Below are positions 6,609-30,191 of a DNA stretch of 30,545 bases, piece after piece (position 1 is the first letter of the stretch; the number at the start of each line of letters is the position of its first letter). The stretch is from a virus: IMG/VR virus record IMGVR_UViG_3300046001_002907, positions 1 to 30,545 of that record. One strand, given 5' to 3'. The notes under the pieces were generated by a model. The model made no database searches and was not told the DNA's origin. It was given only the letters and a program-made list of their open reading frames with translations. A program made the position numbers and the translations under genes.

Positions 6609-6617
6609 TGATATAAT
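6609..6617 (+). promoter_or_regulatory. Extended -10 promoter, leaderless, for the 6627 gene
   Basis: TGATATAAT at 6609-6617 is a full extended -10. Nine bases separate it from the ATG at 6627, and no Shine-Dalgarno site is present. The predicted start of transcription falls at or within about two bases of the start codon, so a leaderless message is expected. Confidence 0.68.
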
Positions 6618-6626
6618 TAAGATATT

Positions 6627-8183
6627 ATGGCTACACTTTTTCCACTATCCGCTTCTGTTGGACAACAATTTCAAGATTATGCTTTTGATGGAGAGACTTG
6701 GAATATTATTGGTGAGAATTGGAAGCCTTTTACTTATTCAGCAACAGAACCAGACTATCACGAGCCAGGATTTATTTGGGTAGATTCAAACGAGGTAGTT
6801 GAAGAAATAAGCTATGTATCTGCATCTGGATATCAAATACTAACAAATAAAGTAATGGATGGAGATAGTAATTATTTTTCAAATATTCCAGAATCTGCTA
6901 CCCTTCCTTCTCAAGATGGAAATAGTGGAAAATATTTAACTACTTCTGGATCTGTAAGTAGTTGGGGAACTATTGATGCTCTCCCATCTCAATCTGGAAA
7001 TAGTGGAAAGTATTTAACAACCTCTGGATCTGCAGCAAGTTGGGGTACTTTAGATTTAAGTCTTTATCTTACACAGACAAGTGCCTCAACAACTTATTTA
7101 TCAAAAAATGAAGCATCTTCAACATATCTAACATCTGCAAGTATGCAAACAGTTCCAGTATATGTAATGAATTCTGGTTCAAGTGCACAAAGACCAGCAT
7201 CTCCATCAGTTGGAATGTTTAGATTTAATACAACTATTGATAGTGTAGAAGCATATCACAGTGACGGCTGGTATGAGTTATCAAATAAATTTACAGCAAT
7301 CGGTGGAACAGAAGTTTTATATTCAAGTGGCGGTGCAAATTATAAAGCACATGTATTTACAACTTCTGGAAATTTTACAGTAAATTCTGGAACAGCAAAT
7401 GTAGAATTTTTACTTGTTGCTGGTGGTGGCGGTGCAGGTGTTAGACATAGTGGTGGTGGAGGTGCAGGGGGACTTATAGTTTCTACAACAAATGTTACTG
7501 CAAATGTTTATTCAATAGTTATTGGTGCTGGTGGTGCAAGAAGTAGCACATCGGCTGGAGATAGTGGAAATAGTGGGTCTAATAGTTCATGTTTTGGTTC
7601 TACAGCAATAGGTGGAGGAAAAGGTGGAACCTATGCAGACAGTGGAAATATTTCTGCTGCATCTGGTGGATCTGGTGGTGGTGCTCCTTATGGAGCAAGT
7701 CTTGGATCTGGAACAGCTGGACAGGGATTTGCTGGTGGACCTGCAACTAGTGGTGTTCATGGCGGCGGCGGCGGCGGTGCTGCTGCAGCTGGAACAGCTG
7801 GTCTAACTACAAATGGTGGAGATGGAGGATCAGGAGTTTTAAATTCATATGACGGTAATTCATACTACTATGCTGGTGGAGGCGGAGGATCTGCTTGGAA
7901 TAGCTCAGGTCGTGGAGGAAATGGTGGATTAGGAGGCTCAGGTGGTGGAGGAATGGGTTATGATTCAGGTACTGGAACAGCTGGCTTAGCAGGAGCATCT
8001 GGAAGAAATGCTGGACAAAATGGTTCAATTGGAGGCTCAAATGGATCAAATCCACAAGGTGGAAGTGCTGGTGCAAATACTGGATCTGGCGGAGGTGGAT
8101 CTGGACAAGGAGCTTATTTGTCTTGGGCTGGAACTGGCGGTGCTGGTGGATCTGGTATAGTTATTGTTAGGTATCAGGTATAA
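6627..8183 (+). CDS. Tail-fibre shaft fused to glycine-rich adhesin
   Basis: A 518-aa protein. The N-terminus MATLFPL followed by DGETWNIIG pairs it with the fibre at 10760. Residues about 45-56 hold the PGFIWVDSNE module. Residues about 92-145 contain two copies of SQxGNSGKYLTTSGSxxSWGT. Residues about 148-175 carry SASTTYL repeats, and about 190-215 RPASPSVGMFRFNTT. From about residue 255 the adhesin begins: AHVFTTSGNFTVNSG, VEFLLVAGGGGAG, a long glycine-rich body, then SGIVIVRYQV. Shaft and adhesin are encoded separately in three other places but are one polypeptide here. The final GTGTVSF tail of the stand-alone adhesins is absent. Confidence 0.84.
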   Translation: MATLFPLSASVGQQFQDYAFDGETWNIIGENWKPFTYSATEPDYHEPGFIWVDSNEVVEEISYVSASGYQILTNKVMDGDSNYFSNIPESATLPSQDGNSGKYLTTSGSVSSWGTIDALPSQSGNSGKYLTTSGSAASWGTLDLSLYLTQTSASTTYLSKNEASSTYLTSASMQTVPVYVMNSGSSAQRPASPSVGMFRFNTTIDSVEAYHSDGWYELSNKFTAIGGTEVLYSSGGANYKAHVFTTSGNFTVNSGTANVEFLLVAGGGGAGVRHSGGGGAGGLIVSTTNVTANVYSIVIGAGGARSSTSAGDSGNSGSNSSCFGSTAIGGGKGGTYADSGNISAASGGSGGGAPYGASLGSGTAGQGFAGGPATSGVHGGGGGGAAAAGTAGLTTNGGDGGSGVLNSYDGNSYYYAGGGGGSAWNSSGRGGNGGLGGSGGGGMGYDSGTGTAGLAGASGRNAGQNGSIGGSNGSNPQGGSAGANTGSGGGGSGQGAYLSWAGTGGAGGSGIVIVRYQV

Positions 8184-8186
8184 ATT

Positions 8187-8555
8187 ATGGGACATTTTGC
8201 AAAAGTAAATAATGGGATTGTTGAGCAAGTAATTGTTGCTGAACCTGACTTTTTTAATAACTTTATTGACTCATCTCCAGGAGAATGGATTCAAACTTCA
8301 TATAATACTCACGGAGGAATTCATCTTTTGGGAGGAACTCCACTTCGTAAAAACTTTGCAGCTATTGGATATTCTTATAATAAAGAACTTGATGCTTTTA
8401 TATCTCCAAAACCTTTTAATTCTTGGATTTTAGATGAAAGCACTTGTTTTTGGAATCCTCCATTAGAATATCCACAAGATGAAAAACTATATATTTGGAA
8501 TGAAGAAATTTTAAACTGGGAAGAAGTAATTAACCCATTAGTACAATACAACTAA
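8187..8555 (+). CDS. Fibre-cluster protein of unknown function, family A (divergent copy 1 of 3)
   Basis: This 122-aa protein starts three bases after the previous stop, with no strong ribosome site. The N-terminus is MGHFAKVNNGIVEQVIVAE; the middle has WIQTSYNTHGGI and LRKNFAAIGYSY; then come FISPKPFNSWILDE and a C-terminal IWNEEILNWEEV. The pattern IRKNxAGIGxxYDxxxDAFIPxKPFxSW is shared with the proteins at 10367 and 18770. Proteins like this are frequent in cyanophages and other marine phages and lack a known role. No membrane segment or signal peptide is visible. Its place directly behind a glycine-rich adhesin suggests a chaperone, an adaptor, or a minor virion part. Confidence 0.75.
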   Translation: MGHFAKVNNGIVEQVIVAEPDFFNNFIDSSPGEWIQTSYNTHGGIHLLGGTPLRKNFAAIGYSYNKELDAFISPKPFNSWILDESTCFWNPPLEYPQDEKLYIWNEEILNWEEVINPLVQYN

Positions 8556-8557
8556 GA

Positions 8558-8585
8558 TGATATAATTAAATATAAAAAAAGGAGG
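8558..8585 (+). promoter_or_regulatory. Extended -10 promoter with Shine-Dalgarno leader for the 8596 gene
   Basis: TGATATAAT at 8558-8566 begins three bases after the previous gene ends. AGGAGG ends at 8585, ten bases before the ATG at 8596. The leader would be about 23 bases long and includes a run of seven A residues before the ribosome site. Confidence 0.62.
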
Positions 8586-8595
8586 CTGATTAATT

Positions 8596-9108
8596 ATGCC
8601 AGTTGCAAAAAAAGCATATGTAAGTGATGGAATTAATTGGCTACCCCTTGTTTCTGGTCTTCCAGATATGGCTGGATATGCAACTACTGAATATGTAGAT
8701 GAATTTATTCCAAACATTTCAGTATCTTCTAGTCCCCCAGCTGCTCCAGAACAAGGACAATTTTGGTTTGATACAGATACAAATGAATTATTTGTTTATG
8801 ATTCTGTATATTGGATAGAAGTATCTGGAACTGCAATAGACCTTGCTGAATATCTTACAACATCATCTGCTTCCACAATTTATGCAACAAAAACAGAATT
8901 AAACAATATTGATGCATTACCATCTCAGTCTGCAAATGCTGGAAAGTATCTAACAACCTCTGGATCCGTAGCAAGTTGGGGAACTTTAGACCTTTCTTTA
9001 TATCTTACACAGTCTTCAGCATCTACAACTTATGCAACACAGGCAGCTTTAAATGCTATAAATGGAGAATCTGATCAATTTATTTTACCAAGTCAGATTT
9101 TTGGATAA
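8596..9108 (+). CDS. Short tail-fibre shaft protein
   Basis: A 170-aa protein. Residues 1-18 (MPVAKKAYVSDGINWLPL) match the N-termini at 3127 and 4046. Residues about 40-75 carry SSPPAAPEQGQFWFDTDT and YDSVYWIEV. Residues about 90-160 carry two SASTxYAT elements and one copy of the GKYLTTSGSVASWGT module found twice in the 6627 protein. It ends GESDQFILPSQIFG and has no adhesin domain of its own. It may act as a stalk whose tip is supplied by the downstream products at 9123 and 9485. A similar short shaft at 10760 is also followed by a separate tip gene. Confidence 0.78.
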   Translation: MPVAKKAYVSDGINWLPLVSGLPDMAGYATTEYVDEFIPNISVSSSPPAAPEQGQFWFDTDTNELFVYDSVYWIEVSGTAIDLAEYLTTSSASTIYATKTELNNIDALPSQSANAGKYLTTSGSVASWGTLDLSLYLTQSSASTTYATQAALNAINGESDQFILPSQIFG

Positions 9109-9110
9109 GG

Positions 9111-9116
9111 TATAAT
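9111..9116 (+). promoter_or_regulatory. -10 element, leaderless, for the 9123 gene
   Basis: TATAAT at 9111-9116, preceded by AGG, ends exactly six bases before the ATG at 9123. It lies two bases after the previous stop codon. No -35 at proper spacing and no Shine-Dalgarno site are visible. Confidence 0.62.
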
Positions 9117-9122
9117 ATAATC

Positions 9123-9485
9123 ATGGCAACTTACTCAAAAGTACTTCTATCAGGTTCAACACAGGGTAAAGCAATTAAAGTTGCTGCTACTGCCTCTGTT
9201 GGTACAACTATTCATGCAACTGGAACATCAGAAACAATAGAAGATGAAATTTGGCTTTATGCATATAATTCTTCAGCAGCTGCAGTTTTGTTAACAATTC
9301 AATTTGGTGGAACAACAGCAGTTGATAATGATATTAAATTATCTATTCCTGCCACATCTGGTTTAACCTTGGTTGTTCCTGGTTTAATTTTAACTGGCAC
9401 TGGTAGTGCTGCTAATACAGTTGCTGCTTATGCTGCAACTACAAATGTCATTACAATTTCAGGTTATGTAAACAGGATTACCTAA
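9123..9485 (+). CDS. Small beta-sandwich virion-type protein, family B (copy 1 of 2)
   Basis: A 120-aa protein with N-terminus MATYSKVLLSGSTQGKAI, a middle EDEIWLYAYNSSAAAVLL and LTIQFGGTT, and the end VITISGYVNRIT. It is clearly paralogous to the protein at 12017 (MATFSKLPLSGSTNGKFI, EVWLYASNSGSAAVKL, VISISGYVNRVS). It lacks Cys, Trp-rich or membrane segments, and its pattern suggests an all-beta fold. I know similar small proteins from marine phages, where they are unassigned; a virion surface or fibre-accessory protein is the best guess. Transcription probably starts at its own start codon. Its stop overlaps the next start (TAATG). Confidence 0.74.
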   Translation: MATYSKVLLSGSTQGKAIKVAATASVGTTIHATGTSETIEDEIWLYAYNSSAAAVLLTIQFGGTTAVDNDIKLSIPATSGLTLVVPGLILTGTGSAANTVAAYAATTNVITISGYVNRIT

Positions 9486-10312
9486 TGGCTAATCCTTTAC
9501 ACAGAATGGTTTCATCAAGCCAAGTAAGTACTTGGTTTGGTCAGGGTGATGGAAGCTTGTATATTCCATCTCGTAAAGTTCAGTTTTTTGAATACCTAGT
9601 AGTTGCTGGTGGTGGTGGTTCACAAAACGATGTTTCTGGTGGTGGAGGTGCAGGAGGATTCCTAACTGGTTTTGGATCAATTGTAACAAGTGCAAATCCA
9701 TACACAATTAGTGTTGGTGGTGGAGGTAGCGGTAATGCTAACGGAGTAAACTCTTCAATTAGTACATTAGCCACAGCACTTGGTGGAGGTCGTGGAGGAA
9801 ACTTTGACGGTCAGGCTGGAGCCTCTGGTGGTTCAGGTGGCGGTGGCGGTGGCAACCAAGGTGGTGCTAGTTCTGGTGGAGCGGGAACTGCTGGTCAAGG
9901 TAATAACGGCGGGCAAGGTACTAACTTTCCATCATCAGGTGCTGGTGGTGGCGCAGGTGCAGTAGGTGGTAACTATGGCGGTGCTGGTGGTATTGGAAAC
10001 CTTTTTTATGGAGTCTACTATGCTGGCGGTGGTGGCGGTGGTCAAGGTGGTGCAGGTGGTTCAGGTGGCGGTGGCACTGGAGGAATTAGAAATGGTGGAA
10101 ACGGTACTGGTGGTGGAACTAATACTGGTGGCGGTGCTGGTGGTAATGGTGGAAACACTGGTTCAAAATCTGGTGGTTCGGGAATTGTAATTCTTAAATA
10201 CTCAGATATTTTTACAATAACAACTTCGGGACTAACTGTTTCAACAGCATCTTCAGCTGGAATTAAAACTACCACAATTACAGGTGGAACAGGAACGGTA
10301 AGTTGGGCATAA
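9485..10312 (+). CDS. Glycine-rich tail-fibre adhesin
   Basis: A 275-aa protein starting in a TAATG overlap. Residues 7-20 (RMVSSSQVSTWFGQGDG) resemble the N-terminus of the unrelated tip at 11176 (LVSTKASTWVGSDN), suggesting a shared docking peptide. The glycine-rich domain starts near residue 35 (FEYLVVAGGGGSQ). It has GGAGGFLTGF, YTISVGGGGSG and GGSGGGGGG blocks, then SGIVILKYSD, and ends GTGTVSWA. The reverse strand of this gene is proline-coding and open by chance. A role as a receptor-binding tip is inferred from the family and neighbours. Confidence 0.82.
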   Translation: MANPLHRMVSSSQVSTWFGQGDGSLYIPSRKVQFFEYLVVAGGGGSQNDVSGGGGAGGFLTGFGSIVTSANPYTISVGGGGSGNANGVNSSISTLATALGGGRGGNFDGQAGASGGSGGGGGGNQGGASSGGAGTAGQGNNGGQGTNFPSSGAGGGAGAVGGNYGGAGGIGNLFYGVYYAGGGGGGQGGAGGSGGGGTGGIRNGGNGTGGGTNTGGGAGGNGGNTGSKSGGSGIVILKYSDIFTITTSGLTVSTASSAGIKTTTITGGTGTVSWA

Positions 10313-10351
10313 TAAAATATTGTCTTTTAAGTACTAGTTTAGCAAAAAATC

Positions 10352-10360
10352 TGATATAAT
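10352..10360 (+). promoter_or_regulatory. Extended -10 promoter, leaderless, for the 10367 gene
   Basis: TGATATAAT at 10352-10360 ends exactly six bases before the ATG at 10367. The upstream gap of about 40 bases has no hairpin. No Shine-Dalgarno site is present. Confidence 0.68.
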
Positions 10361-10366
10361 ATATTT

Positions 10367-10729
10367 ATGGCACATTATGCATTTTTAGATGAAAACAACA
10401 TTGTAACTGAAGTTATTGTTGGTATTGATGAAACAGAATTGATTGAGGGAGAATCCCCAGAAATCTGGTATGGTAAATTTAGAAATCAAACCTGCATTCG
10501 CACTTCCTATAATGGAAATATTAGAAAGAACTATGCTGGTATTGGGTATTCATATGATTTAGATCTTGATGCTTTTATTCCACCAAAACCATTTAATTCT
10601 TGGCTATTAGATGAAACTGTTTGCCAATGGCAATCTCCAGTTCCTTACCCAAGTGATGTACCAGAGAGTGCATTCTATAGATGGAATGAAGATATTATAA
10701 ACTGGGAATTAGTAGAGCCTTCAGAATAA
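10367..10729 (+). CDS. Fibre-cluster protein of unknown function, family A (copy 2 of 3)
   Basis: A 120-aa protein with N-terminus MAHYAFLDENNIVTEVIVG, a middle SPEIWYGKF, CIRTSYNGNIRKNYAGIGY and FIPPKPFNSWLLDE, and a C-terminus RWNEDIINWELV. It is closest to the copy at 18770, which shares MAHYAFLDENN and the EETELIEGxSPExWYG stretch; the copy at 8187 is more distant. It is rich in Tyr and Trp with no signal peptide or membrane segment. Unlike the other two copies it stands alone behind its own leaderless promoter. The function is unknown; a fibre-linked role follows only from its position. Confidence 0.76.
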   Translation: MAHYAFLDENNIVTEVIVGIDETELIEGESPEIWYGKFRNQTCIRTSYNGNIRKNYAGIGYSYDLDLDAFIPPKPFNSWLLDETVCQWQSPVPYPSDVPESAFYRWNEDIINWELVEPSE

Positions 10730-10741
10730 AGAAAATTAAAA

Positions 10742-10756
10742 TGGTATAATTATAAT
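10742..10756 (+). promoter_or_regulatory. Double -10 promoter, leaderless, for the 10760 gene
   Basis: TGGTATAAT (10742-10750) is followed at once by a second TATAAT (10751-10756), and the ATG is at 10760. The first copy, nine bases from the ATG, has the extended TG motif and gives a start of transcription at the start codon. The second is too close to be useful. Confidence 0.66.
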
Positions 10757-10759
10757 ATT

Positions 10760-11176
10760 ATGGCTACTTTATTTCCTCTAGATCCAGAAATTAATGAATT
10801 ATATCAAGGATATTATTGGGATGGAAATTTTTGGAAGAAATCAGGACAAGATGCAGGATTTGGATATCTTGAAGAATCTGCTTTACAAAATACATATTTA
10901 AGTCAAGTATCTGCTTCTACAATATATGCCACTCAAACAGATTTAGATAATATTGATCTTTCTTTATATTTAACACAATCTTCTGCTTCAACACAATATG
11001 AAAAATTAATTCCATATTCTTCCTCCGCTCCATTAAGTCCAGCAACTGGAGACCTGTGGTTAGATTCTTTAACAAGTCCACCAGCTTTAAAAACATATAA
11101 CGGATCTTCCTGGGTTCAATTAGGTTCTGCAGTAGATGATGCTCAAGCAATATTTTCAAGTAGGATGTTCTCATAA
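10760..11176 (+). CDS. Short tail-fibre shaft protein
   Basis: A 138-aa protein with N-terminus MATLFPLDPEINELYQG and WDGNFWKKSG, the same docking class as the 6627 fibre. Residues about 45-80 hold SASTIYATQTDLDNIDLS and YLTQSSASTQY shaft elements. Residues about 85-125 hold SSAPLSPATGDLWLDS and YNGSSWVQLG, the recurring fibre module. It ends DDAQAIFSSRMFS without a tip domain. The next gene starts in a TAATG overlap and encodes a globular tip, so the two are probably made together and assembled as one fibre. Confidence 0.78.
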   Translation: MATLFPLDPEINELYQGYYWDGNFWKKSGQDAGFGYLEESALQNTYLSQVSASTIYATQTDLDNIDLSLYLTQSSASTQYEKLIPYSSSAPLSPATGDLWLDSLTSPPALKTYNGSSWVQLGSAVDDAQAIFSSRMFS

Positions 11177-11814
11177 TGGATATGAGAAAAATTTTAGTAA
11201 GTACTAAAGCTTCTACCTGGGTTGGATCAGATAATATTTCGGTAAAAGTTTCTACAGTAGGACTTTCTAGTGGCAATCCAGCAACAAGTCCAGACTCCCT
11301 AAGCACTTTAGGTAGAACAGAGGGAACTTATTGGCTTAAGTCTCCGTCAATGTCATCTTCAAGACAAATGTATTATGCTCCAAATATGGCAGATGGCAAG
11401 TCTTGGGTTAAAGTTTTTAGCAGCCCATACAGCAGTACAGCAACTATAAATGAAATTGGAAATAGTATAGATTTTGAAGGATTTTTAGTTCAGAGAAACG
11501 ATGCTGCTTCTAGGGCTTATTCATACTTTGGAGCAAAACAATTATATAATACAAGAAGCAGCACTGATTTAACTTCTGGAGGAACTAAAAGTGGTTTTAG
11601 AGTTTATTTAGGACAAGCTGGTGGTCATGGATTTTATAATACCGTTCAAAGTCCATGTAGTTGGGGAGACTCAAATGGGGCTGTAGGTGCTGGATGGAAT
11701 GGTTCAACTTGTGGATCTTTTCCAAATGGATTAATTTGGGGCACTGGTCAATCTGGTACACCAAACTATACTAATCTTTCAGGAACCTGGGAACATTGGA
11801 TATGGTGGTCTTAA
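11176..11814 (+). CDS. Fibre-tip protein, possibly fibrinogen-C-like fold
   Basis: This 212-aa protein starts at ATG 11176 (an alternative start is M3 at 11182). Residues about 4-18 (ILVSTKASTWVGSDN) resemble the docking peptide of the adhesin at 9485. Residues about 35-75 include GRTEGTYWLKSPSMSSSRQM and SWVKVFSSPY, reminiscent of the opening of fibrinogen-related domains. The end has CSWGDSNGAVGAGWNGSTCG and WEHWIWWS, with two Cys that might pair. It has no glycine-rich adhesin, so this unit seems to offer a different receptor-binding surface. A tip role is likely; the fold assignment is tentative. Confidence 0.68.
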   Translation: MDMRKILVSTKASTWVGSDNISVKVSTVGLSSGNPATSPDSLSTLGRTEGTYWLKSPSMSSSRQMYYAPNMADGKSWVKVFSSPYSSTATINEIGNSIDFEGFLVQRNDAASRAYSYFGAKQLYNTRSSTDLTSGGTKSGFRVYLGQAGGHGFYNTVQSPCSWGDSNGAVGAGWNGSTCGSFPNGLIWGTGQSGTPNYTNLSGTWEHWIWWS

Positions 11815-12005
11815 TGCCAATTAGATGGGATTTGGTAGATAATGTTAATGAATTAGAAATTTTTGTTTTAGAAAGAATATCTATATGTGATAAGTGTGAT
11901 AAGTGTGAAGAAAGTGTTGGAATATGCACAGCCTCAGAGTGCAAATGCTTTGCTATATCTTTAGCTCACGATAAAAATTTTAATTGCCCATTAAATAAGT
12001 GGTAG
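11814..12005 (+). CDS. Small cysteine-rich, probably zinc-binding protein (CPLNKW type)
   Basis: A 63-aa protein. I place the start at ATG 11814, overlapping the upstream stop (TAATG), rather than at the earlier in-frame ATG at 11796, which lies inside the previous gene. Seven cysteines (C25, C28, C31, C38, C43, C45, C58) are followed by the ending NCPLNKW. A cysteine cluster followed by a terminal CPxxKW is a pattern I recognise from small phage proteins encoded beside fibre genes; their function is unknown. Metal binding is inferred from Cys spacing. It closes the 10760-12005 unit, and the -10 of the next gene overlaps its last codons. Confidence 0.68.
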   Translation: MPIRWDLVDNVNELEIFVLERISICDKCDKCEESVGICTASECKCFAISLAHDKNFNCPLNKW

Positions 12006-12008
12006 AAT
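12000..12008 (+). promoter_or_regulatory. Extended -10 promoter, leaderless, for the 12017 gene
   Basis: TGGTAGAAT at 12000-12008 has one mismatch to TATAAT in the hexamer. It ends eight bases before the ATG at 12017 and overlaps the end of the previous gene. No Shine-Dalgarno site is present. Confidence 0.58.
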
Positions 12009-12016
12009 AGATTATT

Positions 12017-12364
12017 ATGGCAACCTTTTCAAAATTACCGCTTTCTGGATCAACTAATGGAAAGTTTATAAATATATCTGCATCAGCAACACCTGGTACA
12101 GCAATACACACTGCTGCTGCTGGTACATCTGGTCTTGATGAAGTATGGCTTTACGCATCAAATTCAGGATCCGCAGCAGTAAAATTAACTGTTGAATATG
12201 GTGGAACAACCTCTGCTGATCAAATAGAAATAACTATATCACCAGAGTCTGGATTAGTTTTAGTCTCTCCAGGTCTTGTATTAAATAATGGACTATCTAT
12301 TTTAGCTTTTGCAGGTACTGCAAATGTTATTTCAATATCTGGATATGTAAATAGAGTTTCTTAA
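12017..12364 (+). CDS. Small beta-sandwich virion-type protein, family B (copy 2 of 2)
   Basis: This 115-aa paralogue of the protein at 9123 has the same order of motifs: SGSTNGKFI, EVWLYASNSGSAAVKL, LTVEYGGTT, LVLVSPGLVL and the terminal ISISGYVNRVS. The five-residue length difference lies mostly in the loop before the last strands. Like its paralogue it stands directly behind a leaderless promoter, but here it is alone, without a downstream adhesin. It converges on the minus-strand gene that ends one base downstream, and I see no terminator hairpin between them. A virion-associated role is a guess. Confidence 0.72.
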   Translation: MATFSKLPLSGSTNGKFINISASATPGTAIHTAAAGTSGLDEVWLYASNSGSAAVKLTVEYGGTTSADQIEITISPESGLVLVSPGLVLNNGLSILAFAGTANVISISGYVNRVS

Positions 12365-12586
12365 TTAAATATTACTACTTGCAGACTTTTCATTAATATT
12401 ATCTAGTTCATTTACAATTTTATAAGCCCATTGAGTAATTGCATATTCATATTTGTGATAATGATGACCACAAAACATTAATTCCCCCGAAACTCCAGTA
12501 GCAAGTACAAATGCTTGAGCACCACATTTATCACAACGATCTGCAATCTTTAATACTTTCTTTACTTCTTCTTTAGTTTCGGGCAT
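12365..12586 (-). CDS. DUF7455-like zinc-binding small protein
   Basis: A 73-aa protein on the minus strand. The start at 12586 is preceded on that strand by a GGAG ribosome site. The central pattern is DRCDKCGAQAFVLAT (C18, C21), then ELMFCGHHYHKYE (C39, H41, H42), which is the signature of the DUF7455 family common in actinobacteria and their phages. The Cys/His set suggests one bound zinc ion. The exact role is not known. It is one of only two minus-strand genes in the window, and it lies back to back with the membrane protein gene at 12659. This is the best single pointer to an actinobacterial host. Confidence 0.78.
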   Translation of the reverse strand: MPETKEEVKKVLKIADRCDKCGAQAFVLATGVSGELMFCGHHYHKYEYAITQWAYKIVNELDNINEKSASSNI

Positions 12587-12620
12587 TTATTAATCTCCTT
12601 ATGTTATTTATATGTTATAA

Positions 12621-12652
12621 TTGTCATTAAGTCTTACTTTGGAGTATACCAT
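12621..12652 (+). promoter_or_regulatory. Probable promoter, leaderless, for the 12659 gene
   Basis: TTGTCA (12621-12626) resembles a -35. Two -10 registers are possible: TATACC (12645-12650, spacer 18) or TACCAT (12647-12652), which ends six bases before the GTG at 12659. The nearest GGAG (12641-12644) is 14 bases from the start and overlaps the promoter, so it is unlikely to be in the message. This 72-base gap must also hold the minus-strand gene's promoter. Confidence 0.5.
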
Positions 12653-12658
12653 AAAATC

Positions 12659-12973
12659 GTGAATAATTCAATATCTATGTTTGTCGAAAACTGGCAAATG
12701 TTCTTATCTCTTACCGCCATTCTAGGCGTTGGTTATGCAACCGTAAGAAAATTTGAAAGAATTCTTGGTAAAGATGAAAAGGGTAGAACTATAGCAGATC
12801 GCCTTGATCGTGTAGAGCATCAAATATTTCCAAATGGTGGATCAAGTATTCCAGACAAGGTAAAATGCTTAGCAGATAATCAGTCAGAAATAAAGCAAGA
12901 TATTAAGCAATTAACTGGAGAAGTAAAAGTAATTCACGATGTTCTAGTAGCTTATATCGCAGATAAGAAATAA
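12659..12973 (+). CDS. Small membrane protein with coiled-coil tail (holin-like candidate)
   Basis: This 104-aa protein is predicted to start at GTG 12659; ATG 12677 (residue 7) is the alternative. Residues about 8-29 (FLSLTAILGVGYATV) form one membrane segment. The rest is charged and helical: DRLDRVEHQIFPNGGSS at about 57-73, then a coiled-coil stretch to the end. A single membrane segment followed by an HQxFPNGGSS element is common in small membrane proteins of actinobacterial phages, some of which are annotated as holin-associated. A lysis role is possible but not shown by the sequence. The neighbours are fibre genes, not an endolysin. Confidence 0.66.
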   Translation: MNNSISMFVENWQMFLSLTAILGVGYATVRKFERILGKDEKGRTIADRLDRVEHQIFPNGGSSIPDKVKCLADNQSEIKQDIKQLTGEVKVIHDVLVAYIADKK

Positions 12974-12980
12974 AATAGTT

Positions 12981-13016
12981 TGGTATAATAAGAAAGTAAG
13001 AAAATTTAAATAGGAG
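12981..13016 (+). promoter_or_regulatory. Extended -10 promoter with Shine-Dalgarno leader for the 13025 unit
   Basis: TGGTATAAT at 12981-12989 is followed by a leader of about 28 bases that includes AGGAG at 13012-13016. The ribosome site overlaps a GTG at 13016 and lies eight bases before ATG 13025. This decides for the ATG as the true start. Confidence 0.66.
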
Positions 13017-13024
13017 TGCCCAAC

Positions 13025-13369
13025 ATGACCCCAGGGCTTGTAAACTTTGTTTGTCCTCAAGGTAGTACCTTTAGAAGGACTCTGACATACACCCTGGATG
13101 AAGTTCCAGTAAATTTAGCTGGTTACTCCTCAAGACTTCAAGTAAGAGAAGCTTATTATTCAACAGATCCAATAGTTTCTCTAGTTTCTGGTAGTGGAAT
13201 TACTATGGGTGGATCTGCTGGAACTATTGATATTCTAATTTCAGCAAGTGTAACTTCTGGATTTCCTACTGGAACACACGTTTATGACCTTGAAATAGTT
13301 AGTCCATCTAATTCTGTTGATAGATTAATCGAAGGTACATTTAATGTAACTCCAGAGGTAACTAGATAA
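13025..13369 (+). CDS. Beta-sandwich fibre or baseplate-associated protein, family C (copy 1 of 2)
   Basis: This 114-aa protein starts at ATG 13025, because AGGAG at 13012-13016 would be consumed by the GTG three codons upstream. The sequence runs LVNFVCPQGSTFRRTLTY, YSSRLQVREAYYSTDP, SASVTSGFPTGTHVYDLEIV, then a terminal EGTFNVTPEVTR. The layout (an early 'xGxTF' strand, a domain swap-like centre, then 'YDLEI' and a 'G.xxVTxxVT' last strand) is also seen in the 128-aa protein at 19173. It resembles the N-terminal beta domain of BppU-type baseplate proteins. Both copies are followed by a GPQG-containing protein, so the two work as a pair. Confidence 0.72.
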   Translation: MTPGLVNFVCPQGSTFRRTLTYTLDEVPVNLAGYSSRLQVREAYYSTDPIVSLVSGSGITMGGSAGTIDILISASVTSGFPTGTHVYDLEIVSPSNSVDRLIEGTFNVTPEVTR

Positions 13370-13842
13370 TGCCTGAAATTAAAGTAGAACTTAATCAAAT
13401 AAATAATAATGTTTCTGTAGATGAAACAAATGTTAATGTTAATTTAACAGAACAAGTAGTAAATGTAGATTTAGGAACTTCTGGTCCTCAAGGTCCAAGA
13501 GGAACTGGTCTTTTAAATGGTGTTGGAGCACCTTCAGCAGGTCTTGGAATAAATGGAGACTTTTATTTAAATACTTCAAATATGAATTTGTATGGTCCAA
13601 AAACGGAATCTGGATGGGGAAGTCCAACAGATTTAGTAGGAAGTCAGGAACTTGGGTATGTTCATATTCAAGAAAATGCTTCTGCATCTTGGAGCATAAC
13701 ACACGGATTGGGCTTTGTGCCTAATATTACAGTAGTTGATACAGCAGGAACAGTTGTTGAGGGGTCATATAACTATCCAAATTCAAATACTGTAGTTTTA
13801 ACCTTTGTCGGAGCATTTTCGGGAAGGGCGTATTTATCGTAA
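13369..13842 (+). CDS. GPQG-containing fibre protein with C-terminal beta domain
   Basis: This 157-aa protein starts in a TAATG overlap. Residues 1-37 are hydrophilic beta strands (VELNQINNNVSVDETNVNVN). Residues about 38-47 are GTSGPQGPRG, a very short collagen-like stretch. Residues about 55-70 (VGAPSAGLGINGDFYLNTS) form the fibre module with a GDFYLN signature. The end (VHIQENASASWSITHGLGF, then GRAYLS) is a known beta domain of phage fibres, found here in a related form at the end of the 604-aa protein. The likely role is a linker or fibre connecting the domain at 13025 to the shaft at 13861. Confidence 0.76.
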   Translation: MPEIKVELNQINNNVSVDETNVNVNLTEQVVNVDLGTSGPQGPRGTGLLNGVGAPSAGLGINGDFYLNTSNMNLYGPKTESGWGSPTDLVGSQELGYVHIQENASASWSITHGLGFVPNITVVDTAGTVVEGSYNYPNSNTVVLTFVGAFSGRAYLS

Positions 13843-13860
13843 TGAAGGGGGTGAAAATAT

Positions 13861-15675
13861 ATGTCTAGAAAATTTTTAACAAATATTGATCTAAATAGTA
13901 ATGAGCTTCGTAATGGAATTATCCATAACTTGGCTACAGATCCAGCAGGAAAAGCTGGTCAGCTATATTACAATACTGTAGATAATGAATTAAAGTATTA
14001 TGATGGTGGAGCTTCTGCCTGGGTATCTTTAACTTCAGTAGATGCAGAAATAATTGAAGATGCTGTTGCAGAACTTCTTGCTGCAGGATCTGGAATCAAC
14101 CTTGATTACAATGATGGTTCTGGAACTCTTACAATTGCAAACACTGGTGTAACTAGTATTTCTGGTACAGCAAATGAAGTATCGGTTAGTGGTTCTGCTG
14201 GTGCAGTAGTAGTAAGTCTTCCAAACTCAATTACAGTAGACGTTACTGGTGCTTTAACTGGTAATGCAAGCACTGCTAGTACTTTACAGACACCAAGGTC
14301 TATCGGTCTTGGTGGATCTCTAAGTGGTAGTGTTAGCTTTGATGGTTCGCAAAATGTTACTATTACAGCGGATATTGTAGCAGATTCAGTTGCTCTTGGT
14401 ACAGATACAACTGGTGACTATGTAGCAGGTGCAAATGCATCTGGTGCAGGTATCAGCGTGTCTGGTTCAGGTGGTGAAGGTTCAACTCTTACAATTTCTA
14501 ACACTGGTGTAACTAGTATATCTGGAACCGCTAGTGAAGTTAATGTTTCAGCATCTGCTGGAGCAGTCACGATTAGCTTACCAGAGACTATAGTTGCAGA
14601 TCTTGATGGTGATATAACTGGTAATGCAGGTACTGCTACAGCTTTGCAAACACCAAGGTCTATTGGTCTTGGTGGATCTCTAAGTGGTAGCGTTAGCTTT
14701 GATGGTTCGCAAAATGTAACCATTACAGCGGATATTGTAGCAGATTCAGTTGCTCTTGGTTCAGATACAACTGGTGATTATGTAGCAGGTGCAAGTGCAT
14801 CTGGTGCAGGTATCAGTGTAACTGGTTCAGGTGGTGAAGGTTCAAGTCTAGTTATTACTAACACTGGTGTAACATCTCTAAGTGGTACAGCAAATGAGGT
14901 AACTGTTTCAGCTTCTGCTGGATCAATTACCATTGGTCTTCCAGATGATGTAACAATCGGAGGAAACCTTGGTGTAACTGGAAATCTAACTATAAGTGGA
15001 AGCGTAACAACTCTAAATACAGAAACTTTGCTAGTTGAGGATAATCAAATTACCCTTAATAGCAACGTAACTGGAGTTCCTGCAGCAAATGCAGGTATTG
15101 AAGTTGAGCGTGGAGATTCTACAAATGCTTCTTTAATTTGGAACGAATCCTCAGATAAGTGGTCAGCTGGATTGATTGGTAGTGAAACTGCTATCTCTCT
15201 TGAAGGTCATCAACACGCAACATCTGATATAACTGGATTACAGGAGTATGTTGAAGATACAGTTGGCACAATGCTAACAGACTCTTCAACAGTTGATTTC
15301 ACATATTCAGATAATGGTGGAAGTGCTGGAACATTTACTGCTGGTATTGTTACAGCTTCAACAAGCTATTTGACAACTGGTAGTGGTCTTGCTGTTGATA
15401 TTTCTTCTGTAGAATCAAAGTTAGTAACTGACGGATTCCCAAAGAAATATGCAGTAGGAAACACATCATTAACATCAACTAGTGGAGTATGCACATGGAC
15501 TGTAACACACAACCTTGGAACCAAGGATGTAACAGTTCAAGTATATGAAGTTGCTGCTGATTATGCACAGGTAGAAGTAGATGTACAACATACATCAACA
15601 TCTGCTATAACTATTAAAATAAATAGTGCAACAACAATCTCTGCTGACACTTATCGTGTTGTAGTAATTGGATAA
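13861..15675 (+). CDS. Long tail-fibre shaft protein with 120-aa tandem repeats
   Basis: A 604-aa protein with a strong AGGGGGTG ribosome site. The N-terminus MSRKFLTNIDLNSNELRNG and LYYNTVDNELKYYDG is a fibre-attachment type shared with the 15739 protein. Residues about 94-333 are two 120-aa repeats plus part of a third (NTGVTSISGTA, TPRSIGLGGSLSGSVSFDG, DSVALGTDTTGDYVAGA). Residues about 370-450 contain VTGNLTISGSVTTLNTETL and QITLNSNVTG, widespread fibre modules. The C-terminus (CTWTVTHNLGTKDVTVQVYE, YRVVVIG) is a known fibre end domain. The protein is followed by the terminator at 15691. It is probably the main shaft of one fibre type. Confidence 0.87.
   Translation: MSRKFLTNIDLNSNELRNGIIHNLATDPAGKAGQLYYNTVDNELKYYDGGASAWVSLTSVDAEIIEDAVAELLAAGSGINLDYNDGSGTLTIANTGVTSISGTANEVSVSGSAGAVVVSLPNSITVDVTGALTGNASTASTLQTPRSIGLGGSLSGSVSFDGSQNVTITADIVADSVALGTDTTGDYVAGANASGAGISVSGSGGEGSTLTISNTGVTSISGTASEVNVSASAGAVTISLPETIVADLDGDITGNAGTATALQTPRSIGLGGSLSGSVSFDGSQNVTITADIVADSVALGSDTTGDYVAGASASGAGISVTGSGGEGSSLVITNTGVTSLSGTANEVTVSASAGSITIGLPDDVTIGGNLGVTGNLTISGSVTTLNTETLLVEDNQITLNSNVTGVPAANAGIEVERGDSTNASLIWNESSDKWSAGLIGSETAISLEGHQHATSDITGLQEYVEDTVGTMLTDSSTVDFTYSDNGGSAGTFTAGIVTASTSYLTTGSGLAVDISSVESKLVTDGFPKKYAVGNTSLTSTSGVCTWTVTHNLGTKDVTVQVYEVAADYAQVEVDVQHTSTSAITIKINSATTISADTYRVVVIG
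14140..14945. repeat. 360-bp in-frame tandem repeat inside the 604-aa fibre gene
   Basis: Copies begin at 14140, 14500 and 14860 (the last one partial), exactly 360 bases or 120 codons apart. By hand count the segment 14291-14400 differs from 14651-14760 at only 4 of 110 positions, while the preceding 60 bases (14221-14280 against 14581-14640) differ at 19 of 60. Confidence 0.88.
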
Positions 15676-15677
15676 AG

Positions 15678-15688
15678 TATAATATAAT
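15678..15688 (+). promoter_or_regulatory. Overlapping -10 elements upstream of a hairpin
   Basis: Two TATAAT hexamers share one base (15678-15683 and 15683-15688). They lie just after the stop codon at 15675 and just before the hairpin at 15691. A transcript starting here would carry that hairpin at its 5' end and lead to the fibre gene at 15739. Confidence 0.5.
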
Positions 15689-15690
15689 GT

Positions 15691-15724
15691 GAGGGGCTGG
15701 ATTAAACCCCAGCCTCTCATTTTT
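15691..15724 (+). terminator. Intrinsic terminator hairpin after the 604-aa fibre gene
   Basis: GAGGGGCTGG (15691-15700) pairs with CCAGCCTCTC (15709-15718), ten base pairs with one G-U, around an eight-base loop. ATTTTT follows at 15719-15724. It is the most GC-rich non-coding element in the window and the only clear terminator I found. Confidence 0.75.
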
Positions 15725-15738
15725 AAAAAGGAAGTTTT

Positions 15739-17904
15739 ATGGCAAAGAAATTTTTAACTAGTTTAAAGCTAGTTAACCTACCTTCAGATCCTACAAGTGG
15801 ATCCGAGGGAGAACTATATTTCAATAGCTCAGCTTCTGTTGCAAAAATTTATAAAGAAGGCACTTGGTCTGAACTTGGTGCAGGTGGAGGAACGGGTATA
15901 ACCGTATCTACCACAGAACCTCCTTCTCCAAATGAAGGAGATGGCTGGTATAAAAATGATACTGGTGAACTTTATATTTATGATGGAACCTATTGGGTAG
16001 AAGTCAATGGAGTTATCTCATTAACTCAAGAAGAAGTTCAAGACTATGTTGCTCCCTTATTTACATCTTCAACTAATTCAAATGTTATATCAACATATGA
16101 TGATGTTAACAATGTTATTAATTTAAATACTAGTGGATCTTTAGTATCTATTGATTCTATTTCATCCCCAGATTTTATTCAATTTGATACAACTGCAAAT
16201 ATTACTCCAGTAACTGGATTACTTGGATGGGACAGTGTTGAAGGTACATTAAATCTTGGACTATCATCCACAAAACATATACACCTTGGAGAAGAGTCAG
16301 TATACAGAGTAAGAAATTCAACTGGTTCTACAATATCAAAAGGAACTGCCCTGTATGCATCTGGAGTTGAACCAAGTGGAAGAATACAAGTAACTCCATA
16401 TGTAGCAGATGGATCTGTAAGAGAAGTAAGATTTATGGGTCTTGCAACAGAAAGTATTAGTAATGGCATTAACGGATTTGTTCAACATTTTGGATATGTT
16501 AGAGACTTAGATACAAGAGGAACTTCTTCAACTGCAATAAGCGTTGGAGATGAAACCTGGGGTGCTGGAGATATCTTGTATGTTCATCCAACTGTTCCAG
16601 GAAAACTAACAAACGTAAAGCCAACACATGCTGTTGTAGTTGCAATTATTATAATTCGTCATCAAACAACTGGCATTTTATTTGTAAGACCATCAAGTGG
16701 AGGTCATTTAGAAGATATTCACGACATTTTAATTTCTGGATCTGTTCAAAATAATGAATTTTTAGCATATGATTTACCTAGTGGATTATGGATTAATCAA
16801 ACTGCAGATGAAGCAGGGGTATCTTTATCTTCTCATAATCATACTTTAGATAGTCTTTCAAATGTTGAGATAAATTCATTAAATAACGGAGAGGCTATAG
16901 TTTGGAATTCAGCATCAGGTGCTTGGATAAATCAATTAATAGTCTCTGGAGAAGGCGGTGGTGGTGCTACAACCACTGTTTCTGAAACCGCTCCAGTATC
17001 TCCAACACTAGGAGATACTTGGTATAGACAGTCTGACGGATCATTCTTTATTTATGACGGTAGTTACTGGGTAGAGGTAAATGGAATTATTGATGGTTTA
17101 ACTGAAGATCAAGTACAAGACTATGCATCTACATTATTTACACATGGTAATCATTCAAATGTTACAGCTACCTATAATGATACAACTGGTCAAATTATTT
17201 TAAATTCAAGTACTCAAGACTTAAGTTCCTATTTAACGCAATCTTCTGCTTCTACAACTTATCTTACTCAAGCGTCTGCTTCTACGAATTACCTTACTCA
17301 GGCATCTGCTTCTACGAATTACCTTACTCAGGCATCTGCTTCTACAAACTACCTTACTCAGGCATCTGCTTCCACAAACTACCTTACACAGGCATCTGCT
17401 TCTACAAACTACCTTACTCAGACATCTGCTTCCACAAACTACCTTACTCAAGCAGCTGGATCTGCAACTTACTTGACTATTTCCAATCCAGTAATTACTG
17501 GAGTTACATCAATTAATGCAATTGAAGAGTCTATAACATTGGCTGCAACTTCTGCAGGTGGAACAATTGTTTACGATGTATTATCCAATAATGCTATAAC
17601 ATACTATACTTCAAACGCTTCTGCAAACTGGACTTTGAATATTCGTGGTAATTCTGGAACTACTGTTAATTCTATGCTTTCTACTGGTCAATCATTAACT
17701 ATTGCATTTGCAGTTACCAATGGTACAACAGCCTATTACCAAACAGGTCTTCAAATAGATGGATCAGCTGTTACCCCAAAATGGCAAGGTGGGTCTTCTC
17801 CAACAAGTGGAAATGCCAGCTCTATTGACATCTATTCAATCACAATTATTAAAACAGGAAATGCAGCTTTCACTGTTTGGGAATCACAAACTAGATTTGC
17901 ATAA
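15739..17904 (+). CDS. Long tail-fibre shaft protein with decapeptide repeats and shared C-terminal domain
   Basis: A 721-aa protein with an AAGGAAG ribosome site. The N-terminus MAKKFLTSLKLVNLPSD pairs it with the 604-aa fibre. Two copies of the SPxxGDxWYxxxxGxxxxYDG.YWVEVNG module lie at about residues 58-93 and 413-453. The part between (about 130-400) includes HLGEESVYRVRNSTG and GTALYASGVEPSG. Residues about 503-572 are seven decapeptides SASTxYLTQA. From about residue 597 comes the beta domain (IVYDVLSNNAITYYTS, VTPKWQGGSSPTSGN, terminal ESQTRFA), closely matched in the 20159 protein. A glycine-rich adhesin gene follows after 11 bases. The role is a fibre shaft that presents that adhesin. 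Confidence 0.87.
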   Translation: MAKKFLTSLKLVNLPSDPTSGSEGELYFNSSASVAKIYKEGTWSELGAGGGTGITVSTTEPPSPNEGDGWYKNDTGELYIYDGTYWVEVNGVISLTQEEVQDYVAPLFTSSTNSNVISTYDDVNNVINLNTSGSLVSIDSISSPDFIQFDTTANITPVTGLLGWDSVEGTLNLGLSSTKHIHLGEESVYRVRNSTGSTISKGTALYASGVEPSGRIQVTPYVADGSVREVRFMGLATESISNGINGFVQHFGYVRDLDTRGTSSTAISVGDETWGAGDILYVHPTVPGKLTNVKPTHAVVVAIIIIRHQTTGILFVRPSSGGHLEDIHDILISGSVQNNEFLAYDLPSGLWINQTADEAGVSLSSHNHTLDSLSNVEINSLNNGEAIVWNSASGAWINQLIVSGEGGGGATTTVSETAPVSPTLGDTWYRQSDGSFFIYDGSYWVEVNGIIDGLTEDQVQDYASTLFTHGNHSNVTATYNDTTGQIILNSSTQDLSSYLTQSSASTTYLTQASASTNYLTQASASTNYLTQASASTNYLTQASASTNYLTQASASTNYLTQTSASTNYLTQAAGSATYLTISNPVITGVTSINAIEESITLAATSAGGTIVYDVLSNNAITYYTSNASANWTLNIRGNSGTTVNSMLSTGQSLTIAFAVTNGTTAYYQTGLQIDGSAVTPKWQGGSSPTSGNASSIDIYSITIIKTGNAAFTVWESQTRFA
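17245..17454. repeat. Seven 30-bp tandem repeats encoding SASTxYLTQA
   Basis: Seven head-to-tail copies of 30 bases lie in the 721-aa fibre gene, differing mostly at silent positions (for example tct/tcc and act/aca). A half-matching unit stands on each side. Copy number changes would stay in frame and lengthen or shorten the shaft. Confidence 0.92.
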
Positions 17905-17915
17905 GGAGAATAGTC

Positions 17916-19135: not shown

Positions 19136-19145
19136 ATACCAATCG

Positions 19146-19166
19146 TGGTATAATAATTTAAGGTGA
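19146..19166 (+). promoter_or_regulatory. Extended -10 promoter with short Shine-Dalgarno leader for the 19173 unit
   Basis: TGGTATAAT at 19146-19154 is followed by AAGGTG at about 19160-19165, and the ATG is at 19173. Transcription would begin near 19161, so the ribosome site lies at the 5' end of a leader of about 12 bases. Confidence 0.64.
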
Positions 19167-19172
19167 TTAACT

Positions 19173-19559: not shown

Positions 19560-19560
19560 T

Positions 19561-20157
19561 ATGGCAATAGATACTATTATATCTAATGATGAATTAGTTG
19601 TAGTTGGACCACCTGCCTCAGTATCTGTAAGTGTTGACATTGGTCCACAAGGAGAAAGAGGGTCACAGTTTTACTCTGGTATTGGTCTTCCTACAGCAGC
19701 AGAAAATGTAGCAAGTCTTGTAGATGCAAAAGTAAATGATCTTTACATAAATAGACTTCTTGGTGGAAATTATGGAGTAGTGTATAAATTAAATGCAACT
19801 CCTGGAGGAACCTTATGGCAATCTATATTAAATTTTCAACCAATATCTCATAGCATTCAAAAATTAGTTAATTTTACATCTGGTACTGGATCTATCTCAG
19901 TACCGTTGGCAGATTTTTACTCTACTGCACCAGAAAATTTAGATGCAGAAACAATCCTTGTTCAAGCAACATCAGAATTAAACAATCCAGCATTTGTATC
20001 TGTTTCTAATAAAAATATTGTAAATGTTGGAGATCCTGCTGTTAAAACCTTTATTGCAGAATTAAAAGGTGCACAGCTGTCTTCAGGATCTGTATCTTTA
20101 ATTTCATCGTCTGCAGTTCCTGTAAATTTTTATATAACTGCTGGAGTAGGTGCATAA
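19561..20157 (+). CDS. GPQG-containing fibre-associated protein
   Basis: A 198-aa protein. Residues about 16-36 are ASVSVSVDIGPQGERG, the same beta-then-GPQG layout as the protein at 13369. Next comes FYSGIGLPTAAENV and NDLYINRLLGGNYGVVYKLN, the fibre module with GDFYLN replaced by NDLYIN. Residues about 95-198 are a beta-rich C-terminal region (FTSGTGSISVPLADF, ELNNPAFVSVSNKN, ending FYITAGVGA) with no close match elsewhere in the window. It has no strong ribosome site and probably depends on coupling to the gene two bases upstream. A linker or fibre role follows from parallel gene order with 13025-13842. Confidence 0.72.
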   Translation: MAIDTIISNDELVVVGPPASVSVSVDIGPQGERGSQFYSGIGLPTAAENVASLVDAKVNDLYINRLLGGNYGVVYKLNATPGGTLWQSILNFQPISHSIQKLVNFTSGTGSISVPLADFYSTAPENLDAETILVQATSELNNPAFVSVSNKNIVNVGDPAVKTFIAELKGAQLSSGSVSLISSSAVPVNFYITAGVGA

Positions 20158-22242: not shown

Positions 22243-22248
22243 AAACCT

Positions 22249-23340
22249 ATGCCAACTCCGACAATTGCTTTTTTAACTTATGACTGGTCATTTGGCGTAA
22301 AGCCACTACAACCAAACGGATGTGGTTGGTATAGAGCATACCTTCCAATGAAGCAATTGAAGGAGCATGGCTGGGAAAGTGGAATTGGTATTCCAGGATT
22401 TAGTGAAGAACATGCTTTTGGTATTTTAATTCCAGATGAAAAAGCAATACACGGATGGGACATAATTGTTTTAAAATTAATTATGCTTAAAAGATTTGTT
22501 GATCATGTTGCAAAAGCCAGAGAACTTGGTCAAAAAATTGTTGTTGATATTGATGATCATATGGAAGGTCTTGAAGAAACAAATCTTGCATATAAAACAA
22601 CTCATCCAGATTCAAATCCAGATAATAATAGAGATCACTATATTGCAATTATTGAACAAGCAGATGCCTTAATAACTTCTACCCCATTTTTAAAAGATTA
22701 CTATCAGAAAAAATATCCAGACAAGCCAATATTTTTAATAAGAAATGGTATTGATATTGAAAGATGGGGAATAAAAAGAAAAGACCATGCTGGTCTTCTT
22801 CCAAAATTTGGATGGGTAGGGGCAACTCCTTGGAGATCTGGAGATCTAGAAACTCTTAATCCTTTCTTTGGAGAGTTTTTAAAAAAGAAACATTTAAAGT
22901 TTCATCACGCAGGAAATGTTATCAATGCTCCAGCAGCATCAGATCAAATTGGTATTGATAAAAAATATTGTACATTTGAACCAATGAAGACAATGCTAAA
23001 CGTTCCAGAACTATATAGAAAAATGGATGTTGGAATTGTTCCATTAAGAGATGTTGAATTTAATCACGCAAAATCATATTTAAAAGGTCTTGAGTACGGG
23101 GCTGCTGGAATTCCTTTTATTGCACAAGCATTACCAGAGTATCAACTACTTGCTGATTCTGGAGTTGGAAGAGTTGCAAATACTCCAGATGAGTGGCTAG
23201 GACATATGGAAGAATTGTTAGATCCAAAAGTTAGACTTCAAGAAAGAGATAAAAACTTTCAACTTATATCCGAAAAGTTTTCAATGAAGCAAAGAGGGTA
23301 TGACTGGGAAGAAGCTTGTAAAAAAATTCTTGCGTTATAA
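22249..23340 (+). CDS. GT-B fold glycosyltransferase (GT4-like)
   Basis: A 363-aa protein that transfers a sugar from an activated donor; the acceptor is unknown. Visible landmarks are GCGWYRAYLP (about 24-33), VDIDDH (99-104), RNGID (165-169), GWVGATPWRSGDLE (188-201) and NHAKSYLKGLEYGAAGIPFI (272-291). The last matches the donor-binding region of GT4 enzymes, with K275 and E282 as likely key residues. There is no signal peptide or membrane segment, so it is cytoplasmic. It follows the holin-like gene by six bases. Glycosyltransferases near structural genes of actinobacterial phages are known to modify virion proteins; the Ser/Thr-rich fibres here would be natural targets. That link is inference. 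Confidence 0.82.
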   Translation: MPTPTIAFLTYDWSFGVKPLQPNGCGWYRAYLPMKQLKEHGWESGIGIPGFSEEHAFGILIPDEKAIHGWDIIVLKLIMLKRFVDHVAKARELGQKIVVDIDDHMEGLEETNLAYKTTHPDSNPDNNRDHYIAIIEQADALITSTPFLKDYYQKKYPDKPIFLIRNGIDIERWGIKRKDHAGLLPKFGWVGATPWRSGDLETLNPFFGEFLKKKHLKFHHAGNVINAPAASDQIGIDKKYCTFEPMKTMLNVPELYRKMDVGIVPLRDVEFNHAKSYLKGLEYGAAGIPFIAQALPEYQLLADSGVGRVANTPDEWLGHMEELLDPKVRLQERDKNFQLISEKFSMKQRGYDWEEACKKILAL

Positions 23341-23341
23341 T
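23336..23341 (+). promoter_or_regulatory. -10 element, leaderless, for the 23348 gene
   Basis: TATAAT at 23336-23341 overlaps the stop codon of the glycosyltransferase gene and ends exactly six bases before the ATG at 23348. There is no Shine-Dalgarno site. Confidence 0.6.
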
Positions 23342-23347
23342 ATATGT

Positions 23348-24089: not shown

Positions 24090-24146
24090 TTGCTTCTCCT
24101 TGAATACTCGTGTAGAATGTATCTATTACATTTTATCAGAAGGACG
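24090..24146 (+). promoter_or_regulatory. Promoter and Shine-Dalgarno for the ribonucleotide reductase gene
   Basis: TTGCTT (24090-24095), a 17-base spacer and TAGAAT (24113-24118), preceded by TG, form a fair promoter. AGAAGGACG (24138-24146) is the ribosome site for ATG 24156. It sits in the short space between divergent genes. Confidence 0.6.
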
Positions 24147-24155
24147 TGTTACAAA

Positions 24156-26096: not shown

Positions 26097-26102
26097 GCTC
26101 TA

Positions 26103-26122
26103 TGATAAAATAGGGTAGAGGT
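26103..26122 (+). promoter_or_regulatory. Extended -10 promoter and short leader for the 26128 gene
   Basis: TGATAAAAT at 26103-26111 has one mismatch to TATAAT in the hexamer and ends 16 bases before the ATG at 26128. AGAGGT at about 26117-26122 may serve as a ribosome site at the very 5' end of the message. Confidence 0.5.
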
Positions 26123-26127
26123 AATCT

Positions 26128-29793: not shown

Positions 29794-29804
29794 ACGATAT
29801 TTTA

Positions 29805-29813
29805 TGGTACAAT
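29805..29813 (+). promoter_or_regulatory. Extended -10 promoter, leaderless, for the 29820 gene
   Basis: TGGTACAAT at 29805-29813 has one mismatch to TATAAT and ends exactly six bases before ATG 29820. It is eleven bases after the end of the LamG gene. No Shine-Dalgarno site is present. Confidence 0.62.
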
Positions 29814-29819
29814 GATGTC

Positions 29820-30191
29820 ATGGATTATCTAGAAGGATTACAAAAACTGCCAAACAAGCCAAAAGTAAGCTACGTTGAAAATGATGCTGAATACGGTCTA
29901 TATGTTTGGAAAACAGAAACAGGAAGAGTATTTGGAGACGGTAATGGAAGTTTTATGAACATTCCAGCTAGAAAATATGATCTAACTGCTATTAATAGAA
30001 TTACACAGGCTGCAGCACACTATGGTGCTGGTCCAGGAAAGGCTGTATTTATGCCAGGAGTGACAAGAATTACAGAAGAAGAGCATTCTGTTCAGATTGA
30101 CAGAATGAAGCAAGGCTACATCCCAAGTGAATTTGACACTGGGGCTTTTATGGATGCTGCAAAGGGGCTAAAAAAACATGGAAATGACTAA
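29820..30191 (+). CDS. Phage protein of unknown function upstream of the portal gene
   Basis: A 123-aa protein. ATG 29820 (MDYLEGLQKLPNKPKVSY) is preferred over the upstream in-frame ATG at 29772, because it lies six bases after a -10 element and the longer form would overlap the LamG gene. Sequence features: VSYVENDAEYGLYVWKTETG, FGDGNGSFMNIPARKYD (about 40-56), then NRITQAAAHYGAGPGKAVFM and a helical, charged C-terminus. It has no membrane segment or known motif. Its end overlaps the portal start by 14 bases, so it is probably made with the portal. A head or packaging accessory role is inferred from position only. Confidence 0.74.
   Translation: MDYLEGLQKLPNKPKVSYVENDAEYGLYVWKTETGRVFGDGNGSFMNIPARKYDLTAINRITQAAAHYGAGPGKAVFMPGVTRITEEEHSVQIDRMKQGYIPSEFDTGAFMDAAKGLKKHGND

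Follow-up and report, generated by a model that had tools for sequence, protein, structure and literature searches.

Promoter placement in the tail fibre region

The virus record IMGVR_UViG_3300046001_002907 raises the question of how its genes, and those of the tail fibre region in particular, are started, as a preliminary description had noted -10 promoter motifs lying almost directly against several start codons. The window analysed here is the whole record of 30,545 bases, which has a GC content of ~0.37 and carries nearly all of its genes on the + strand. All nine extended -10 sites that had been listed, either exact TGRTATAAT or one-mismatch forms, are present (Table 1). Exact TGRTATAAT occurs at six of these sites and no others on the + strand, compared to 0.57 expected under a first-order Markov model (maximum of 3 in 60). 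One-mismatch forms are only slightly more numerous than expected over the whole window (44 versus 31), and the signal is therefore one of placement rather than of overall number. A generic -35/-10 scan of positions 1-20000 found no excess (55 versus 65), an Rfam search gave no match, and no tRNA was found in the window.

We define d as the distance from the end of the hexamer to the start codon. Seven of the eight near-start sites that had been proposed are upheld, and none of the seven genes has a Shine-Dalgarno (SD) site, as had been claimed; a distance of exactly six holds for four genes rather than for five. At 8558, 12981, 19146 and 26103 the -10 is followed by a leader, as had been noted for other units. 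The eighth near-start case, at gene 12659, was dropped because the conserved TACCAT before it belongs to the opposite-strand promoter of the divergent DUF7455 gene, being the reverse complement of TGGTATACT / TGGTACAAT. The single 72-bp gap at 12586-12659 holds divergent promoters, TGGTATACT on the - strand and TGTTATAAT on the + strand, and is conserved across contigs.

Table 1. Extended -10 and -10 sites in the window and the starts associated with them.
Sequence	Position	Strand	Form of TGRTATAAT	Associated start
TGATATAAT	6609..6617	+	exact	extended -10, 9 nt 5' of ATG 6627; fibre gene 6627-8183, Gly_rich_2
TGATATAAT	8558..8566	+	exact	leader and SD (AGGAGG 8580-8585), then ATG 8596
AGGTATAAT	9108..9116	+		hexamer 9111-9116, 6 nt 5' of ATG 9123
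TGATATAAT	10352..10360	+	exact	ATG 10367 at 6 nt
TGGTATAAT	10742..10750	+	exact	ATG 10760 at 9 nt
TGGTAGAAT	12000..12008	+	one mismatch	ATG 12017 at 8 nt; gene 12017 is a paralogue of gene 9123
TGTTATAAT	12613..12621	+		start 12659 lies 37 nt downstream; leadered
TGGTATACT	12643..12651	-		extended -10 of divergent DUF7455 gene 12365-12586
TGGTATAAT	12981..12989	+	exact	leader and SD, then ATG 13025
TGGTATAAT	19146..19154	+	exact	leader (AAGGTGA), then ATG 19173
TATAAT	23336..23341	+		ATG 23348 at 6 nt; overlaps stop codon of upstream gene; 7/7 family members
TGATAAAAT	26103..26111	+	one mismatch	leader and SD (GAGG), then ATG 26128
TGGTACAAT	29805..29813	+	one mismatch	ATG 29820 at 6 nt; gene 29820 directly upstream of portal gene

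Two further observations concern the window itself. For the start that our script placed near 13016, the better reading is ATG 13025, with AGGAG 5' of it. Between TATAATATAAT and gene 15739 (15676-15741), a GGCTGG..CCAGCC hairpin is followed by a T run; it is only mildly stable (z -1.9) and may be a terminator or a leader structure.

Position statistics across related contigs

Near placement was measured in ten related low-GC contigs (~0.67 Mb, 300 gene families) with genes called by a simple script; the nine related contigs that were fetched span 49 to 102 kb at a GC content of ~0.35. TGnTATAAT is strongly biased to the coding strand (~120, compared to 13 on the other strand). Of 715 major-strand starts, 22 have exact TATAAT at d=6 and 18 have it at d=9, compared to 0.0 and 0.06 expected from internal ATGs, while few fall at d=10-13 and a second group begins at d=14. 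SD sites accompany 62% of the genes in this second group (d>=14) and 14% of those in the near group.

To lessen the effect of relatedness, one member was drawn per family. A -10 at d=5-9 was found in 23.9 of the 300 families, compared to 2.1 (internal ATG) and 2.5 (Markov) expected, and the reverse-complement control gave near placement in 1 family; TATAAT is thus not equally frequent at random positions, the outcome that the preliminary description had named as counting against it. At the family level, SD sites are at chance frequency in the near group (11%, chance 11.5%) compared to 46% in the others (p=0.002). Near genes have the sequence features by which leaderless genes are recognized, with a -10 that would put +1 on the start codon or <=5 nt from it, no SD site beyond chance and an ATG/GTG start. 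One family, G001:43035 with TATAAT at d=9-10, has AGGA in the spacer and is likely SD-led. At G001:45510-45535 and its relatives (TGATATAATAATATAGATGTATTATG), a conserved -10 is followed by an ATG at d=7 and by a second, out-of-frame ATG at d=14.

Start-site signatures

The bases around the near starts follow the rules of transcription start sites. When near sites were picked by the exact hexamer alone, G stood at -14, two bases 5' of the hexamer, in 21/23 near families compared to 102/378 (27%) of other TATAAT occurrences. The base at -1 was a pyrimidine in 22/22 near families compared to 43/131 SD-led families (p=6e-10). The fibre joints are related to one another, and the cases are therefore not all independent. 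A pyrimidine at -1 is as expected if the ATG is +1, and the start codon of the near genes is ATG in 68/68. The sites have the form of extended -10 promoters, in which TATAAT is accompanied by TGn or by a G at -14. On average they show no -35 signal at 16-18 nt, as for promoters with a weak or dispensable -35; homologues of gene 29820 in several phages do have a TTG-type hexamer 17 nt upstream. Together, these findings strongly support the prediction that the sites are extended -10 promoters with the consensus GRTATAAT, mostly lacking a clear -35. For the group at d=8-9, mostly fibre genes, the usual start point would possibly leave a leader of 1-3 nt.

Conservation of the start of gene 29820

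In 34 related loci, gene 29820 is preceded by TGGTACAAT (TGGTATAAT in three loci), six bases and the ATG, while the flanks vary. In one Rhodococcus phage and ten Streptomyces phages, the homologous proteins are 33-41% identical, and the -10 still lies 6 or 7 nt 5' of the ATG. Before this pre-portal gene we found TATAAT at d=7 in Blueeyedbeauty, Faust and Karp; TACAAT at d=6 in BillNye, Wakanda and Tomas (the last counted to an upstream ATG); TAAGAT at d=6 in Navo and Bmoc; TATGAT at d=6 in Yaboi and Coruscant; and TGTTATAAT at d=6 in the Rhodococcus phage Peregrin. Across the annotated Blueeyedbeauty genome, a one-mismatch -10 lies at d=6-8 for 8/143 starts. In Streptomyces phage Tomas (NC_070781.1), the annotated start of gene 50 is probably 15 bases too far downstream, as an in-frame upstream ATG lies 6 nt past TACAAT, like in its relatives.

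Possible gain and movement of near starts in the fibre region

Near -10 starts are about fivefold richer in the fibre region (15/60 families versus 9/152, p = 2e-4), but they are not confined to the tail region and occur genome-wide, also at genes outside it. A similar joint, AATGRTATAATTA..ATTATGGC, precedes fibre gene 6627 and other fibre genes with different N-termini. Gene 9123 has the same -10 placement in low-GC relatives (L018, L020, L023, L024, L026, L029 and L032), where it reads GGATAAGGTATAATATAATC-ATG or nearly so, while its homologues at GC 0.41-0.68 usually have an SD site such as GGATAAGGAG at this junction instead of the -10. Paralogues of gene 10367, at 18770 and at many other loci, overlap the upstream stop (ATAATG), whereas 10367 lies 54 nt from its upstream stop and has its own promoter.

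Each fibre cassette had been proposed to carry its own promoter and so to be independent and easy to move. In favor of movement, two promoter units recur in other contigs downstream of unrelated genes: L240 retains the 10760 block AAATTAAAATGGTATAATTATAATATT although the gene preceding it is unrelated, and G005 retains the final 20 bases 5' of 10367, there following a gene that shows no detectable similarity. Independence is not borne out, as terminator-like structures are not above chance (6 versus 11.5 expected) and do not separate the cassettes; the near sites are therefore read as extra internal promoters rather than as proven independent units. These comparisons support the view that near promoters can move with fibre genes. 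More tentatively, and with somewhat less confidence than would make it our expectation, we propose that a block of ~20-30 bp fusing the extended -10 to the start codon serves as a portable expression start for tail-fibre genes, and that SD-led junctions turned leaderless, or the reverse, within this lineage. If so, exchanged fibres would be expressed without having to match the ribosome-binding context of the upstream gene. Among other proteins searched, one of 1221 aa has no homologue in the phage collection and the 438-aa protein of G001:82685 has partial matches only.

Host and transcription machinery

The host of this freshwater phage is very likely an actinobacterium, as had been proposed, judging by DUF7455, WhiB and homologues in Streptomyces and Rhodococcus phages. 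WhiB is encoded in four long contigs, and among 14 control genomes the WhiB search matches only Corynebacterium. In candidate host genomes, drawn from the order of a Lake Lanier actinobacterium, TANAATN6ATG is in only 1.9-fold excess over the reversed pattern, an excess present in 79/81 genomes. A search of 15 records gave no sigma-70 region 2; the contigs are fragments, and therefore a phage sigma factor could sit in an unsampled part.

A first DUF7455 scan of genome contigs found no relative, and a second hit actinobacteria as well as a single phage-like contig that had been binned as cyanobacterial. This 110 kb contig (CAINGU010000031.1; GC 0.35), from a cyanobacterial MAG, encodes DUF7455, and one of its proteins is 58% identical to a G001 protein over 555 aa. 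It very likely belongs to a related phage and was binned together with a cyanobacterium. The G001 contig (L311-L312) also encodes a tubulin/FtsZ-family protein with an FtsZ_C domain, IMP dehydrogenase, a DnaE-type polymerase and nucleotide-sugar enzymes.

Proposed mechanism and alternatives

Since the promoter ends 5-9 bases before the start codon and no SD site is present, the messages most likely begin at the start codon or <=~3 bases from it. We propose that the host main sigma factor would read the extended -10 sites, that RNA polymerase would initiate at the ATG or within three bases of it, and that actinobacterial ribosomes would load straight onto the leaderless message. Other genes of this phage have the -10 followed by a leader of 8 nt or more, usually with an SD site. 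New or shuffled fibre-region genes could bring the short start block along, and because it comes with the gene, a fibre gene would be expressed wherever it lands. Leaderless or near-leaderless starts are strongly supported by where the sites lie, by the lack of SD sites, by the G at -14 and the pyrimidine at -1, and by conservation across distant phages, and we consider it highly probable that host-sigma extended -10 promoters produce such mRNAs, sometimes travelling with fibre genes.

The best-surviving alternative, which we regard as unlikely, is that the promoters are real but most of the protein is translated from long read-through messages, through coupling or re-initiation, with leaderless messages minor. 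The terminator count, upstream stops that are often <=60 nt away and the ATAATG-coupled paralogue at 18770 would suit this reading. However, near genes have SD sites at chance level compared to the other families, their -1 base and -14 G obey start-site rules, and the 10367 copy, unlike 18770, is separated from the upstream stop. It is more doubtful still that a phage-encoded or modified transcription apparatus reads the motif at late times only, in the manner of T4 late promoters, even though fibre genes are enriched among the near starts and the sites on average lack a -35 signal; the motif is an ordinary bacterial extended -10, it also occurs at genes outside the fibre region, the 29820 promoter has its TTG-type hexamer in several phages, and sigma-70 region 2 was not found in the 15 records. 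The very similar AATGRTATAATTA..ATTATGGC block 5' of fibre genes with different N-termini could also reflect AT-rich recombination joints between fibre cassettes rather than promoters, but this is very improbable, as non-fibre genes share the placement, which is conserved there across distant phages, and controls matched in base composition yield one tenth as many cases. Chance TATAAT in AT-rich intergenic DNA, despite the weak one-mismatch excess over the window, is refuted by the position statistics and opposed by the family-level, -14 G and -1 pyrimidine statistics, leaving it practically no likelihood.

Gene finders and transcription models for phages usually presuppose a single late operon and leaders that contain ribosome sites, whereas this lineage has dense, conserved promoter-start fusions, many of them in structural genes. 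The promoter-start spacing would provide a sequence rule able to correct start codons, as in phage Tomas, and a simple explanation is offered for the continued expression of fibre genes after exchange. One of these starts is shared by cultured Streptomyces relatives, which makes leaderless translation in actinobacterial phages directly testable.

Comparison with known systems

Moron cassettes of lambdoid phages are genes with their own promoter inside the late region. The genes described here likewise have their own promoter, but terminators are at or below chance and the promoter is joined directly to the start codon. Stanwilliamsviridae, Streptomyces phages such as Blueeyedbeauty, Faust and Coruscant, share the gene order RNR, gene before portal, portal and protease, the -10 located 6-7 nt 5' of the pre-portal gene and a homologous capsid protease (~48% identical). 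They differ in GC content (0.47 versus 0.35 in the environmental contigs), and the proteins searched against them were <60% identical.

More than 20% of genes in Actinobacteria are predicted to be leaderless (PMC3160421), and in mycobacteria an ATG or GTG at +1 suffices, with lower efficiency suggested at +2 to +5 (PMC4633059). Actinobacterial leaderless (TA-led) genes, for example in Mycobacterium, similarly have a -10 just 5' of the ATG and no SD site, while the present cases lie in a phage genome, have the extended -10 G, are dense in the fibre region and are predicted from sequence. In cluster O mycobacteriophages, three leaderless promoters (PL1, PR2 and PL2) have been predicted (PMC4351075). 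These phage promoters likewise resemble those of SigA and have their predicted +1 on the first base of the start codon, but they make up three of 8-9 promoters, compared to ~24 gene families here, many of them fibre genes, for which statistics and conservation were tested. In the open-access library searched, we found no report of phage fibre or structural genes with leaderless starts that are both dense and conserved. Leaderless genes in actinobacteria and predicted cases in cluster O were thus already known, and what appears to be new is the dense and conserved fusion of promoter and start.
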